Shown here: positions 24,487 through 30,216 of the stretch, one piece after another
How positions within the stretch are numbered: the stretch's first letter is position 1
Layout: every line of letters begins with the position of its first letter
Assembly (NCBI GenBank): GCA_007692425.1
Contig: RECG01000022.1
Coordinates: forward strand, 1-44,181
Direction of reading: 5' to 3'
From: Acholeplasmataceae bacterium
GTDB taxonomy: Bacteria > Bacillota_I > Bacilli_A > Acholeplasmatales > Acholeplasmataceae
DNA: 44,181 nt
Made by a program: the position numbers and the translations under genes
Notes under the pieces: model-generated
The model's database searches: none
Seen by the model: the letters and a program-made list of their open reading frames with translations, nothing else
Told to the model about the DNA's origin: nothing

Positions 24487-25326
24487 CTATTCGTATGCCA
24501 TATAAACGCCTAATCCTCCCAGACCGACATGGGCTGAAACGACAGGGCTGATGACACCTGTGATCTTGACCGCGATTTTGTCTCCAAGTTGGAAAATATC
24601 ATGTTCCAATTGTTTGGCAAACGTGGTGTGATCCACATAGGCAATCCGCACCACGACCTTGCCGAATGCCAACAGTTTTTCCACTTCTTTGACAAGATAG
24701 GCAAGCACGCTTGGGACGCTTCTGACTTTGTGTTCAAGTTCCAGCACACCTTGTTTGAATCGCAAAATCGGCTTGACTTTGAGCACGTTGCCGATGACGG
24801 CTTGCACTTTGCCGATTCTTCCGCTTTTGACCAAGGTTTGAAGGTTGTCAATGGTGAAGATGATGGATCCCTTGCTTTTCAGGTCTTCGAGATGAGCAAG
24901 ACCCTCTTGCAACGTGTGTCCCTGGTCAAAAAACTCAATCATCTTCTCGGTCAGATAAGCGCCTCCGTTGATGGTGGTTTCGCTATCGACCACGGCCACC
25001 TTCTTGTTTTCAAGAATGGTCTGTCCGAGGGTGGCTGAATTGTTTGTGCCGGAGAGTTGCTTGGAAATGGTCAGACAAAGCACTGACTCATAGGTTTCAA
25101 GTTGCTCTTCATAAGCCTTCAAAAAGGCTTCCGGCGATGGTTGGGATGTTTTGACATCCTTCTTCAACTTGAGCGCTTCAACCACCAACTGCGGGTCGAT
25201 TTGCCCGTCAACAAACTCCTTGTCGTCAATCAACACTTTAAGCGGCACAACCGTGATGTTGTGCTGTTTGGCATATGCGGGATCGACACTGAAGGTCGAA
25301 TCGATCACCAAACCGACTTTTCTCAT
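24487..25326 (-). CDS. DegV family fatty-acid-binding protein (FakB type)
   Basis: 279 aa, usual DegV length. The family binds a fatty acid and presents it to the kinase FakA for phosphorylation and entry into phospholipid synthesis. Marks: LVIDSTFSVDPAYAKQ near the N-terminus, the TSQPSPEAF loop, LTISKQLSGTNNSATLG, VDSETTINGGAYLTEKM, and the C-terminal SAHVGLGGLGVYMAYE. The start is ATG 25326 with GAGGTGAG 7 bases upstream; the in-frame GTG at 25338 overlaps that site. Single gene with its own terminator. A possible promoter TTGGCA-17-CATAGA upstream is weak. No fakA is seen nearby; which acyl chain it binds cannot be read from the sequence. Confidence 0.9.
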   Translation of the reverse strand: MRKVGLVIDSTFSVDPAYAKQHNITVVPLKVLIDDKEFVDGQIDPQLVVEALKLKKDVKTSQPSPEAFLKAYEEQLETYESVLCLTISKQLSGTNNSATLGQTILENKKVAVVDSETTINGGAYLTEKMIEFFDQGHTLQEGLAHLEDLKSKGSIIFTIDNLQTLVKSGRIGKVQAVIGNVLKVKPILRFKQGVLELEHKVRSVPSVLAYLVKEVEKLLAFGKVVVRIAYVDHTTFAKQLEHDIFQLGDKIAVKITGVISPVVSAHVGLGGLGVYMAYE

Positions 25327-25424
25327 GATTTCACTCACCTCTTATTTCTATGTTTTCAATGTGATGCCTTGCCAAAGCGCGGCAATATTAAATGAATGGT
25401 TTTGTGTTGTCTTGATGATGAAAC

Positions 25425-26055: not shown

Positions 26056-27177
26056 TCACACCTTCTTCAAGAGAACGACCGCTTCGGCGGCAATGGCTTC
26101 GCCGCGGCCGATGGCGTCTCGTTTTTCATAGGTTGTCGCCTTGATGCTCACTTGGTTGATATTGATGCCGAGGTGGTTGGCGATGTTGGTTCTGATGTCG
26201 TTGATGAATGGATTGATTTTGGGTTGTTCGGCGTAGATGGTGGCATCGATATTGACGACACCATGACCGTTATCTTTGATGCACGCATGTGCGTGTTTTA
26301 AAATCAACGTTGAATCCATGTTTTCATATTGTGGGTCGTCATCGGGAAAATGGGTCCCGAGATCACCCAGGGCAAGCGCACCGAGCATCGCTTCGGCAAT
26401 GGCGTGCAACAAGACATCAGCGTCGCTGTGTCCCGCCAATCCTCTGTCGTGCGGAATATTGATGCCTCCCAAAAGCAGAGGCCTTTGCTTGATCAGTGGA
26501 TGAATATCAAAACTATGTCCGATCCGCATGGCTTGCTCCTTTGTAAGCACGTGTGACACATATGTAAGATCTTCTTGAAAGGTGACTTTTAGATTGGGGC
26601 TGTCGTTGATCACCACATACACGTTGTCACCAGGATAAAACTGTTGGTATAATGCAACGTCATCATCGTGCGCGTCGCTGTTGCGCAAATGGGCGTGACG
26701 GATTTTTTCTGTCAGGAAGGCTTGTGGGGTCTGGGCGAGAACATGGGTGTTACGGTCAAGGCTTTTAACGGCGTTGTCTTGATGTTGTTTGAGCGCGCTC
26801 GTGACCGGCTCCGCCAACAAGACGGCATCGTGCAGGGCAATCGCTTCTTCAACTTTCGAAATGGCTTCTTTGGTAATCAACGGTCTGGCCGCGTCGTGAA
26901 TGAAGACATAGGGTGTGGTGACTTCCTTGAGGCCGTTGAGGACACTCTCGCTTCTGGTCTTTCCACCGATGACAAGACGGATGTCTGGTGCGATGTGTTT
27001 CTTGACTTCTTGAAAATCGTTTTTGGCGACGACCAGTATCACATCAAAACCAAGCGCTGAAAAGGCCTCGACGCTAAATAGGAAGAGAGGTTTTCCGTCT
27101 ATCGGATAAAGGATTTTCGAGCGGTCCAGCTTGGTCCTTCTGCTGGTGCCTGCCGCCACAATCAAGGCTGTGTTCAT
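26056..27177 (-). CDS. ispDF: bifunctional IspD/IspF: MEP cytidylyltransferase and MECDP synthase
   Basis: 373 aa covering two steps of the MEP isoprenoid pathway. Residues 1-215 are IspD (adds CMP to methylerythritol 4-phosphate): ALIVAAGTSRR, YVFIHDAARPLIT, AQTPQAFL. The N-terminal CTP loop is atypical: RSK where the family usually has PK. Residues about 216-373 are IspF (cyclises to 2-C-methyl-erythritol 2,4-cyclodiphosphate): metal site SFDIHPL, GLAGHSDADVLLHAIAEAMLG, DLGTHFPDDDP, then KATTYEKRDAIGRGE. The fusion is common in alpha- and epsilonproteobacteria; Bacilli usually have separate genes. The skipped IspE kinase gene is not in the window. ATG 27177, two bases after the preceding stop. 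Confidence 0.95.
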   Translation of the reverse strand: MNTALIVAAGTSRRTKLDRSKILYPIDGKPLFLFSVEAFSALGFDVILVVAKNDFQEVKKHIAPDIRLVIGGKTRSESVLNGLKEVTTPYVFIHDAARPLITKEAISKVEEAIALHDAVLLAEPVTSALKQHQDNAVKSLDRNTHVLAQTPQAFLTEKIRHAHLRNSDAHDDDVALYQQFYPGDNVYVVINDSPNLKVTFQEDLTYVSHVLTKEQAMRIGHSFDIHPLIKQRPLLLGGINIPHDRGLAGHSDADVLLHAIAEAMLGALALGDLGTHFPDDDPQYENMDSTLILKHAHACIKDNGHGVVNIDATIYAEQPKINPFINDIRTNIANHLGININQVSIKATTYEKRDAIGRGEAIAAEAVVLLKKV

Positions 27178-27179
27178 GC

Positions 27180-27695
27180 TTATACCTTGAGATACGCGTC
27201 AAGCTTCTGGTCATGCGGTCCGGGTTCGAAATGATCGATTTCCTGAAAATCGTAAATGATGCCAATGACGTGGCGAGGACGGTGTTTCTGTAAGAAATCA
27301 TCATAATAGCCCTTGCCGAAACCAATCCGGTAAAACGTTTTGGAAATGGCAATTGCCGGCACAAGCAAAAGATCGATGTCATCATCAACGCGTTTGCCCA
27401 AGACGGGTTCCAAAATGCCAAAATCGCTTTTGACGAACCTGGATGTTTCGGTGGTGGCATAAAAATGGATGCCGTCCTTTTCGACCTTGGGATAAGCGGG
27501 CCTGATGTCCAAATCAGCAATTTCCCGGATGTCAAGTTCATTGGTCACAGGCATATAGAGGCCAATGATTTTTGCTTCGCTGAAAAAAGGCAAGGCCTTG
27601 ATGAGATCGACCATGCGGGCACTGCGTGCCAGCACTTCCGCCTTGCTGAGTTGTTGCCGTTTTTCAAGCATGCTTTTACGGATGTCTTTTTTCAT
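27180..27695 (-). CDS. 5-formyltetrahydrofolate cyclo-ligase
   Basis: 171 aa. Converts 5-formyl-THF to 5,10-methenyl-THF with ATP, recovering stored folate. N-terminal KKDIRKSMLEKRQQLS (basic ATP/folate-binding helix), IIGLYMPVTNELDI, and the C-terminal ATP loop IGFGKGYYDDFLQKHRP, which is the clearest family mark. The start is ATG 27695, overlapping the stop of the preceding gene (TCATGA) with AAGGA upstream; the open frame further upstream is inside that gene. Also called MTHFS/YqgN. Confidence 0.94.
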   Translation of the reverse strand: MKKDIRKSMLEKRQQLSKAEVLARSARMVDLIKALPFFSEAKIIGLYMPVTNELDIREIADLDIRPAYPKVEKDGIHFYATTETSRFVKSDFGILEPVLGKRVDDDIDLLLVPAIAISKTFYRIGFGKGYYDDFLQKHRPRHVIGIIYDFQEIDHFEPGPHDQKLDAYLKV

Positions 27696-29278
27696 GAGAC
27701 GATGTCCTTGTAATAACAACCGTGTCCATCGAACTGCGGATTTTCCGCAATCTTCAAGGCCTGGGCTGCTGCTTGGTAAAGCTTGTGTTCGTCATGGGCG
27801 TCGTTACCGCCGATGGCAATACCGGCAAAGACTTCGAGTTCAACGCTGATGGATCCATATTGCATCTTGAGATTCAAGAAGGTTTTATTGCTCTTGATGC
27901 CGTTGGCGAGAACCTCCATCTTGCGTGGATCGGTGACCAGAACGGCAAATTCAATGCCGCCGATCCGGAAAATATCGCCTTTCTCCGTGACAAAGGTGGC
28001 GCGCAATTTTCGAATGTATTCCGCCATGAGCATATTGCCGACTTCGCGCCCGTGCAATTCGTTGATTTTAGGCATATTCTTCAAATGGATGACCTTGAGT
28101 TGAAAATACTTGTTGTTTTTGAACAACTGGTTCATGGTCACCATGAGATCGTTTTGGTCTTTCAGGTTGTCAAGTTCATCGATGTTGCTAGCTTTGAAAT
28201 GTCTGGTCTTGACCGGATTGAGCGTTCCCATGATTACGGCGGCGTTCTGATCTTCAAACAAGCGTTTGCCTTTTTCCTTGAACCAGACATATTGACCGTC
28301 AACCAAAACCCGGTAAGAGGTGGTGTATTGTTTCTTGTTGATGGTCAGATCGCCTAGGATGGCCAAGTATTTTTTCAAATCCTCGGATTCAATCAGTCGT
28401 CTGAAATCGGTCAAATCCAAAAGGTTTCCCGGCAGTTTTAACATGTCGACCAATGTATCGCTGGCCCAGATGGTCCGTTCATCCAAATCAATGTAGAACA
28501 GCCCCTCTTCGCTAATTTCCAAAGTGGCGATGAATTTATGTCGGATGCTCTCAAGTTCGTTATTACGGTCGCTTAATTCTTTTTCAACAGCGAGCATGTT
28601 GAAATCACTCTTCTTTTCACCCACGCAAATGCGCCCCTTGTATCGCCCCAAGGCAAAGACCGGCTGCATGACCATGTGAAGAATGACGGGGTTGCCGTCG
28701 GCATTAAAAAATGAGAGTTCCTGGATGTCGCTGTCGCCTGGTTTGGCGTTTTCGCGATATTCCAGATAATGATTTTCCAGTGCCCGGTTATTGATTTCGG
28801 TTTGATTGAGCTTGGTGAACCGGATGGTTTTGTTAAAGACGGTAAACAACTTTTTGCCGATGATCTCGTCCTTGTCCATGTGCAATTCTTGGAGAAGGCT
28901 CGTAGAAATGTCCTTGATGCGTTCTTTCGCATCCACGACATAATAGGCATTCCAACGGCTGTTTTTAATGGATTTGACAAACAATTGATAATGGTTGGCT
29001 TTCAACGTTGACGTTTTGAATGTGGTATAAAGCACCATGAGAAACAGGGCATAGACAAACAAGGTGAACCCGATATAAGCCTGTTGATATGTCCCTGCCA
29101 CACTGATCCAGTCTGTCTGATAAAAGACAACAATAACCATCACCGCGATGGCAATGTTCAAAAAAGCAAGAATCAGACGAAAACGCAAAACCTTTTCGCT
29201 TTGAATGCTTTGGATGATGACCAACACCAACGTAAAGACGGTGATGATCAGTGGATACAACGGATGTTGGACAAGCAT
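27692..29278 (-). CDS. three-span membrane protein with two PAS-like domains and a degenerate GGDEF domain
   Basis: 528 aa. Three N-terminal spans (about 9-25, 31-53, 63-87), a PAS-like region about 100-225 (YYVVDAKERIKDISTSLLQE), a coiled-coil (VEKELSDRNNELESIRHKF), a second PAS-like region about 250-360 (GLFYIDLDERTIWASDTL), and a GGDEF domain from about 385. In it, GGDEF reads GGIEF at 440-444 (codon ATT where GAT or GAC is expected), and the metal-binding DxDxFK region reads VIHLKNMPKINELHG. Diguanylate cyclase activity is therefore unlikely. No EAL, HD-GYP or DHH domain follows, so it is not GdpP. It is second after cdaA, four bases behind a 58-codon gene. Ligand binding, cyclase regulation or scaffolding are possible; function unknown. 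Confidence 0.85.
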   Translation of the reverse strand: MLVQHPLYPLIITVFTLVLVIIQSIQSEKVLRFRLILAFLNIAIAVMVIVVFYQTDWISVAGTYQQAYIGFTLFVYALFLMVLYTTFKTSTLKANHYQLFVKSIKNSRWNAYYVVDAKERIKDISTSLLQELHMDKDEIIGKKLFTVFNKTIRFTKLNQTEINNRALENHYLEYRENAKPGDSDIQELSFFNADGNPVILHMVMQPVFALGRYKGRICVGEKKSDFNMLAVEKELSDRNNELESIRHKFIATLEISEEGLFYIDLDERTIWASDTLVDMLKLPGNLLDLTDFRRLIESEDLKKYLAILGDLTINKKQYTTSYRVLVDGQYVWFKEKGKRLFEDQNAAVIMGTLNPVKTRHFKASNIDELDNLKDQNDLMVTMNQLFKNNKYFQLKVIHLKNMPKINELHGREVGNMLMAEYIRKLRATFVTEKGDIFRIGGIEFAVLVTDPRKMEVLANGIKSNKTFLNLKMQYGSISVELEVFAGIAIGGNDAHDEHKLYQAAAQALKIAENPQFDGHGCYYKDIVS

Positions 29279-29282
29279 GTTA

Positions 29283-29459
29283 TCACCCCAGGATGTATGG
29301 TAGCGCGTAGAAGATAAAAAGGATGGCGAAGGTGATCAAGACGGCAAGCACATAAACCAGCGCTTGATGCCGGCTGAAGAAAATGGCAATTTTTTCAGCC
29401 ATGATCCTGCTGCCGAAACCTTTGAATGGTTCAATTAAAATGACAAATAGTTTTTTCAT
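29283..29459 (-). CDS. 58-aa single-span membrane protein between cdaA and the GGDEF-like gene
   Basis: A short unannotated gene. ATG 29459 follows GAGGG at a 7-base distance; TGA is at 29283, four bases before the next ATG. The protein opens MKKLFVILIEPFKGFGSRIM, has an amphipathic middle (AEKIAIFFSRHQ) and one strong membrane span at about 33-57 (LVYVLAVLITFAILFIFYAL). Ribosome binding site, tight spacing in the operon (10 bases after cdaA) and a charge pattern typical of a cytoplasm-facing N-terminus all support a real gene. No family recognised. Context suggests a partner of CdaA or of the GGDEF-like protein; this is inference. Confidence 0.75.
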   Translation of the reverse strand: MKKLFVILIEPFKGFGSRIMAEKIAIFFSRHQALVYVLAVLITFAILFIFYALPYILG

Positions 29460-29469
29460 GATGCAGCCC

Positions 29470-30216
29470 TCACTTCATGAACATGTTAAGATATTCCATC
29501 AATTTATCACGGTCGTTGATTTTTAGCATGATGCCTTCAATGGCAATGGAGATGTTGCCGGTTTCCTCGGAAACAATGATGGTCATGCTGTCTGTGATTT
29601 CACTGATGCCGAGTCCTGCGCGATGGCGTGACCCCATCGTTTTCTCGAAGTTCTGGTTGTCGGAGAGAACAAAGTATGCGCCGGCACAAAGCACGTGGTC
29701 GCCGCGAATGATGATGGCACCGTCGTGAAGCGGTGTCTTGGGTGTGAAGATGTTAAGGAGTAGTTCTTTGGAAACCTCGGCATTGAGCGTCACCGCCCGG
29801 TCTGCATATTGGTCCAGCGTGTTGTGTTTTTCAATCGTGATCAACGCTCCGGTCTTTTGGCCCGCCATGGTTGTAGCAGCTTCAACAATGCTGTTTTTGG
29901 TTCGTTCACTGCTGATCACAAACGAACCGTCCCTGATGTCGCCTTTCCAAACCATTTCTAGCGCTCTTCTAATATCCGGTGCCATGATGATGATCAAAAG
30001 CACCGGCAGCCATTGGACAAGATAGGTCAGCATTGATGCACTGATCAACAGGTCGAAATGGTTGGCAATCCAGGCCAATGCATAGACAAAAAGAAACGAG
30101 ATGGCGATACTGAGCATGCGCTTGTTGCTGACAAGAAACTTGACAACAAAAAAGACAAGAATCCAAACGATGTACGCATCAATGATGATTTTCCAGACAG
30201 GCGTGTCAAACAGCAT
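29470..30216 (-). CDS. cdaA: membrane diadenylate cyclase CdaA
   Basis: 248 aa. Makes c-di-AMP from two ATP. Three membrane spans (about 7-28, 34-50, 58-78), then the DAC domain with catalytic DGA at 165-167 (TPLHDGAII) and RHR at 197-199 (GSRHRAGLG). The start is ATG 30216, with AAAGGAGAG upstream and a promoter RNA start about 20 bases before; residues read further upstream precede the ribosome binding site. In Bacilli cdaA is normally followed by cdaR and glmM. Here it is followed by a 58-aa membrane protein and a degenerate GGDEF protein, so its regulator may be different. First gene of a six-gene operon. Confidence 0.96.
   Translation of the reverse strand: MLFDTPVWKIIIDAYIVWILVFFVVKFLVSNKRMLSIAISFLFVYALAWIANHFDLLISASMLTYLVQWLPVLLIIIMAPDIRRALEMVWKGDIRDGSFVISSERTKNSIVEAATTMAGQKTGALITIEKHNTLDQYADRAVTLNAEVSKELLLNIFTPKTPLHDGAIIIRGDHVLCAGAYFVLSDNQNFEKTMGSRHRAGLGISEITDSMTIIVSEETGNISIAIEGIMLKINDRDKLMEYLNMFMK

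Follow-up and report, generated by a model that had tools for sequence, protein, structure and literature searches.

Described c-di-AMP synthase systems and the present locus

In B. subtilis, Listeria and S. aureus, the diadenylate cyclase CdaA is encoded in a cdaA-cdaR-glmM operon. The contact between CdaR and CdaA is made by the transmembrane (TM) regions, and the cyclase is tuned by both of its operon partners, CdaR and GlmM (PMC8573169, PMC10243994); the manner in which CdaR regulates CdaA is still unclear (PMC8573169). M. pneumoniae possesses the cyclase CdaM together with PdeM, and the control of that cyclase is unknown (PMC5508000).

The window, that is, the whole stretch of 44,181 nucleotides analysed here, carries a CdaA operon with other partners. 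As in the cdaA-cdaR-glmM operons, a cyclase gene of the same class opens a dense operon, and the next gene encodes a membrane protein with one TM helix and a predicted cytoplasmic N-terminus. However, no YbbR domain was found; in its place stand genes for a protein of 58 aa and for a PAS/degenerate-GGDEF protein, followed by 5-formyltetrahydrofolate cyclo-ligase (5-FCL) and ispDF rather than glmM. The larger of the two proteins resembles GdpP (YybT) in its membrane anchor, its TM-PAS-degenerate GGDEF order and its c-di-AMP gene context, but it lacks DHH-DHHA1, has three TM segments and, within the taxonomic order, two PAS domains, and escapes the GdpP-specific domain models; its family is also linked to the cyclase gene and coexists with true GdpP in family f7. 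The CdaM/PdeM system is likewise that of a wall-less bacterium with a membrane DAC protein and a stand-alone DHH-DHHA1 phosphodiesterase, whereas CdaM, which has one TM segment, represents a separate class of cyclase, and no PAS/GGDEF partner has been described there. PAS-GGDEF diguanylate cyclases such as DosC, CC_0091 and PA0861 share the PAS and GGDEF domain folds; unlike them, the present family has lost the catalytic and metal residues. A full-text search of open papers returned no description of the cdaA-small gene-PAS/GGDEF layout, in agreement with the original prediction, which had named no described system with exactly this arrangement. The locus represents a real and widespread variant of the CdaA operon that extends clade-wide through Acholeplasma-like bacteria and into some related groups; as judged from the open papers searched, it is probably new to the literature.

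The cyclase gene and the gene block

The cdaA gene (29470..30216, minus strand) encodes a TM region and a DAC domain. Its product scored 197 bits against the NCBIfam equivalog TIGR00159 (cut-off 188.8), matched PF02457 above cut-off and could be aligned to solved CdaA structures, and its TPLHDGA and GSRHRAG motifs are both intact. The TIGR00159 match, the N-terminal TM region and the DGA and RHR motifs together identify a CdaA-type cyclase. The mechanically called ORF extends to 30243; the ATG at 30216 is probably the start actually used, because the SD sequence AAAGGAGAG precedes it and many relatives share the resulting length of about 248 aa.

The three genes are separated by 10 bases (cdaA to small gene) and 4 bases (small gene to PAS/GGDEF gene). 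All three ORFs are present as originally predicted: cdaA with its DGA and RHR motifs intact, tightly followed by a 58-codon gene and a gene for a 528-aa protein. The stop codon of the latter overlaps the start of the 5-FCL gene (27180..27695, minus strand; PF01812/TIGR02727 and neighbour table) in an ATGA at 27692-27695, an overlap that probably couples the translation of the two genes. The bifunctional ispD-ispF gene (26056..27177, minus strand; PF02542 at its own-genome site and neighbour table) begins 2 bases later in the same block, and degV (24487-25338) lies further down. Rfam searches of the window found tRNAs only and no c-di-AMP riboswitch, and the promoter and terminator scan stayed at chance level.

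A membrane PAS/GGDEF protein with a degenerate signature

The 528-aa protein (27692..29278, minus strand) was characterized by Pfam, alignment A1, an AF2 model and its distribution in the order and class. PAS_9 and GGDEF were matched above cut-off. The second PAS domain was below threshold in the window protein (PAS_3, 20.7 bits against a cut-off of 25.6), and PAS_3 was matched in 22 of 32 relatives. The AF2 model, computed with 32 relatives in the alignment (mean pLDDT 84.1, pTM 0.39), contains three helices at the N-terminus that would fit TM segments, of which the third continues into the cytoplasm, and then a PAS domain (111-223), a helix (226-255), a second PAS fold (259-355) and a GGDEF fold (375-527). 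Pfam, the PAS_3 matches in relatives and the modelled second PAS fold bear out the 3TM-PAS-PAS-GGDEF architecture with GGIEF that had been read from the sequence. A fold search with the protein retrieved only generic PAS and GGDEF structures.

A GGDEF fold with an above-cut-off Pfam match might suggest an active diguanylate cyclase that ties c-di-GMP to c-di-AMP. This is extremely improbable, as the first metal Asp is lost in every family member examined, and so is the acidic residue at the third position of the signature, which reads RIGGIEF in the window. Alignment A1 of 32 order sequences retains N406, G414, R438, G441, F444 and D450 without exception, whereas substitutions affect the acidic residue of the signature and the first metal ligand throughout; the relatives in families f7, f16, f23 and f24 have lost the same catalytic residues. 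Across the family, the signature is RxSGLxF-like, and xLxNIPxIN stands where the D-x-D-x-F region is expected. A catalytic diguanylate cyclase identity was rejected on the loss of the GG(D/E)EF signature and metal-binding acidic residues in the 32 order sequences and class relatives, and the domain resembles a pseudo-enzyme.

Pfam found no DHH or DHHA1 domain on the 528-aa protein, an absence already noted in the original prediction and now backed by positive GdpP controls. The control GdpPs were matched by PAS_GdpP (PF21370), GGDEF_GdpP (PF24898) and the DHH-DHHA1 models, whereas neither GdpP-specific model matched the PAS/GGDEF protein, which is therefore not a truncated GdpP; a GdpP fragment was thereby ruled out.

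Conservation in the order

The order was surveyed in 160 genomes, and 70 loci were inspected. A DAC domain occurs in 139 of the 160 genomes, one copy each, and the PAS/GGDEF protein in 116. The gene order cdaA-small gene-PAS/GGDEF is kept in 67 of the 70 loci; the other three, from two f3 genomes and G159, have the PAS/GGDEF gene without an adjoining cdaA, and no DAC domain was among the matches in G159 (80% complete). These loci supply the recurrence across relatives that had been set as a check, and the further families described below extend it for cdaA and the PAS/GGDEF gene. The same operon is also found in JAAYQV010000018.1, a record titled 'MAG: Phytoplasma sp.'. Among the genomes of the order that lack the PAS/GGDEF gene is an entire genus with genomes of 0.3-0.9 Mb, which we infer from this size to be phytoplasma-like. 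At 7 of 7 cdaA loci examined in this genus (L104-L110), both partners are missing, and degV directly follows cdaA in six.

The 58-aa bitopic membrane protein (29283..29459, minus strand), described from the locus survey, alignment A2 and codon-position bias, matched no Pfam or NCBIfam family. Its ORF is nevertheless considered a real gene because it fills the gap in 67 of 67 order loci with cdaA adjoining the PAS/GGDEF gene, because alignment A2 reveals a basic amphipathic N-terminal segment with an invariant Pro followed by one TM helix, and because differences among close pairs fall mostly on third positions (142/62/282 on codon positions 1/2/3). The positive-inside rule predicts an N-in topology, and the one-helix protein directly after cdaA measures 50-75 aa in this order. 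Distances of the small protein correlate slightly more closely with those of the CdaA TM region (0.77) than in the other comparisons (0.65-0.73). Family f3 keeps the small gene beside cdaA with the PAS/GGDEF gene located elsewhere, and the small gene was not seen in families f7, f16 and f24. Within its range, the small gene appears to have a cleaner link to cdaA than the PAS/GGDEF gene has.

Distribution relative to CdaR and GdpP

The YbbR (CdaR) domain was not found in the window's own genome (97.8% complete), so that no cdaR was found elsewhere to pair with this CdaA, a point on which the original prediction depended; nor was it found above cut-off in the 160 order genomes. Profile A1 was searched against a class sample of 395 genomes and matched 99, and YbbR occurred in 117 of the 395, none of them shared with those 99. 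Independence would predict about 29 shared genomes; as each of the two clusters by family, however, a formal probability of the non-overlap is not meaningful. At all eight YbbR loci read in other lineages, cdaA lies directly upstream, and these YbbR proteins are therefore true CdaR.

The original prediction also held that cdaR is replaced by the small and PAS/GGDEF genes. Position and distribution agree with replacement; a homology to CdaR could not be shown. The small protein may be a shrunken CdaR that retains its TM helix alone, an origin compatible with the other readings discussed here: it occupies the same place after cdaA, has one N-in helix, and its best HMM alignments land on the CdaR helix. 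Yet for so short a query these alignments do not reach significance (the best of 7 sequences had an E-value of 0.028 and 3.6 bits). A comparison with CdaR by hhalign gave a probability of 2.7%, compared with 4.8-4.9% for control helices; this origin is rather improbable.

GdpP was likewise not found in the order, where 61 genomes contained no GdpP-sized DHH protein. The DHH proteins found there are of about 820 aa (RecJ-sized), pairs of about 320 aa, and a few of about 530 aa, one of which was checked and is RecJ-type by Pfam. Families f7 and f22 do contain true GdpP, identified with the GdpP-specific PAS and GGDEF models, and other lineages with YbbR encode proteins of GdpP size.

Conservation in the class

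Outside the order, PAS/GGDEF relatives were found in families f7, f16, f24 and f23; G199, a generic match with an SGDEF signature, was left out of the family. The f7 relatives are about 510-520 aa and match A1 over their full length, and those of f16, f24 and f23 are about 375-420 aa, with TM segments, one PAS domain and GGDEF. Both genes occur in 49 genomes of f7, f16 and f24. In 47 of these, the PAS/GGDEF gene is preceded on the same strand by cdaA at a distance of 0.3-3.6 kb; in the other two, the genes are on different contigs. The interval holds no gene, MgsA, or an FAD-type protein of about 780 aa. MgsA, an MGS-like protein (methylglyoxal synthase), is the intervening product in f7 (L152:2629-2988, L151:3016-3399). 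The protein of about 780 aa, with a weak FAD/NAD-binding N-terminus, lies there in f16 and f24 (L153-L164, e.g. L161:190-2535) and possibly belongs to this system.

These loci bear on whether the genes are simply co-inherited housekeeping genes of compact genomes, persisting in one operon while functionally unlinked. Dense packing, the conservation of further neighbours, and vertical co-inheritance, with distance correlations of 0.83-0.89 between cdaA parts and PAS/GGDEF parts, would all be expected of such persistence. The block is nevertheless conserved in at least six families despite differing intervening genes and a variable remainder, and both partners are absent together from the small genomes; mere persistence is thus distinctly unlikely.

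Family f23 departs from this pattern. The DAC domain was not found in its genomes (G219, G288, G435 and G462; 82-97% complete; one genus; L166 and L167), and the PAS/GGDEF gene is retained with ispD-ispF. Possibly, this genus has lost c-di-AMP synthesis.

Proposed control of CdaA

The best single reading is that the PAS/GGDEF protein, with the small protein, controls CdaA, to which we assign a probability of roughly 0.48. This reading is preferred because the linkage to cdaA survives changes of the intervening gene, the distribution is complementary to that of CdaR, GdpP is missing from the order, and the protein is located in the membrane. Consistent with it, genomes without IspF retain the PAS/GGDEF gene beside cdaA, and the small phytoplasma-like genomes keep cdaA without either partner. 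The CdaR contact and the tuning by operon partners in the described systems offer a precedent. Against it stand f23 and G159, which have the PAS/GGDEF gene and no DAC domain found, and f3, in which that gene is not beside cdaA. The downstream 5-FCL/ispD neighbours, moreover, are as constant as cdaA and remain when cdaA is elsewhere.

Much of this contrary evidence would suit a PAS/GGDEF protein that senses for another target, such as the 5-FCL/isoprenoid genes, an envelope process or another nucleotide, in an old block shared with cdaA in which only the small protein is functionally CdaA's. Where sufficient sequence is available, 5-FCL and/or ispD lie directly downstream in nearly all loci, those without cdaA included, and in the window the ATGA overlap probably couples 5-FCL to the PAS/GGDEF gene; the arrangement in f3, the f23 genomes and the slightly closer fit of the small protein to the CdaA TM region point the same way. 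Such a target is nonetheless somewhat unlikely, since some loci lack 5-FCL, IspF-less genomes retain the gene beside cdaA, and neither the persistence of the cdaA link through changing intervening genes nor the complementarity to YbbR would be expected. The IspF-less genomes weaken a dependence of the gene on the isoprenoid pathway, and a strict dependence on CdaA does not hold in f23; therefore, neither neighbour alone explains its retention.

If CdaA is indeed the target, the PAS domain or domains would sense a signal in the cytoplasm, whether a redox, gas, flavin or heme state or a metabolite, and the signalling helix would carry the change to the degenerate GGDEF domain. Serving as a dimerisation or nucleotide-sensing module, that domain could work through membrane contacts to shift CdaA between oligomers of lower and higher activity, and the small protein would act as a helix adaptor on the TM region of the cyclase. 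A read-through fusion model, made from the natural frame of cdaA, small and large genes in L008 with stops read as residues (A3), gave a pTM of 0.32, too low to speak for contacts or a complex.

The locus is best explained as the housekeeping operon for c-di-AMP synthesis in a large clade without CdaR. More tentatively, and at somewhat less than even odds, a second class of regulator for the essential CdaA is suggested across a broad clade: a membrane PAS/pseudo-GGDEF sensor, joined in one order by a one-helix adaptor, that would stand in for CdaR by position and, where GdpP is missing, for the sensor module of GdpP by its PAS input. If so, a clade without CdaR and, in the order, without GdpP would illustrate a different solution to CdaA switching, with PAS input placed on c-di-AMP synthesis. 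The question of CdaA switching could also be approached experimentally in Acholeplasma strains that can be cultured, or by co-expression in E. coli, which produces no c-di-AMP of its own.

While PAS input would act on synthesis, a stand-alone DhhP/PdeM-like enzyme would degrade the messenger. A DHHA2 search of the window's own genome found nothing. Tandem DHH proteins of about 320 aa, of DhhP/NrnA type by size, are encoded at G000:C9:72424-73771 (L119), and such pairs are frequent in the order; by analogy with M. pneumoniae, the two members are possibly one nanoRNase and one c-di-AMP phosphodiesterase.
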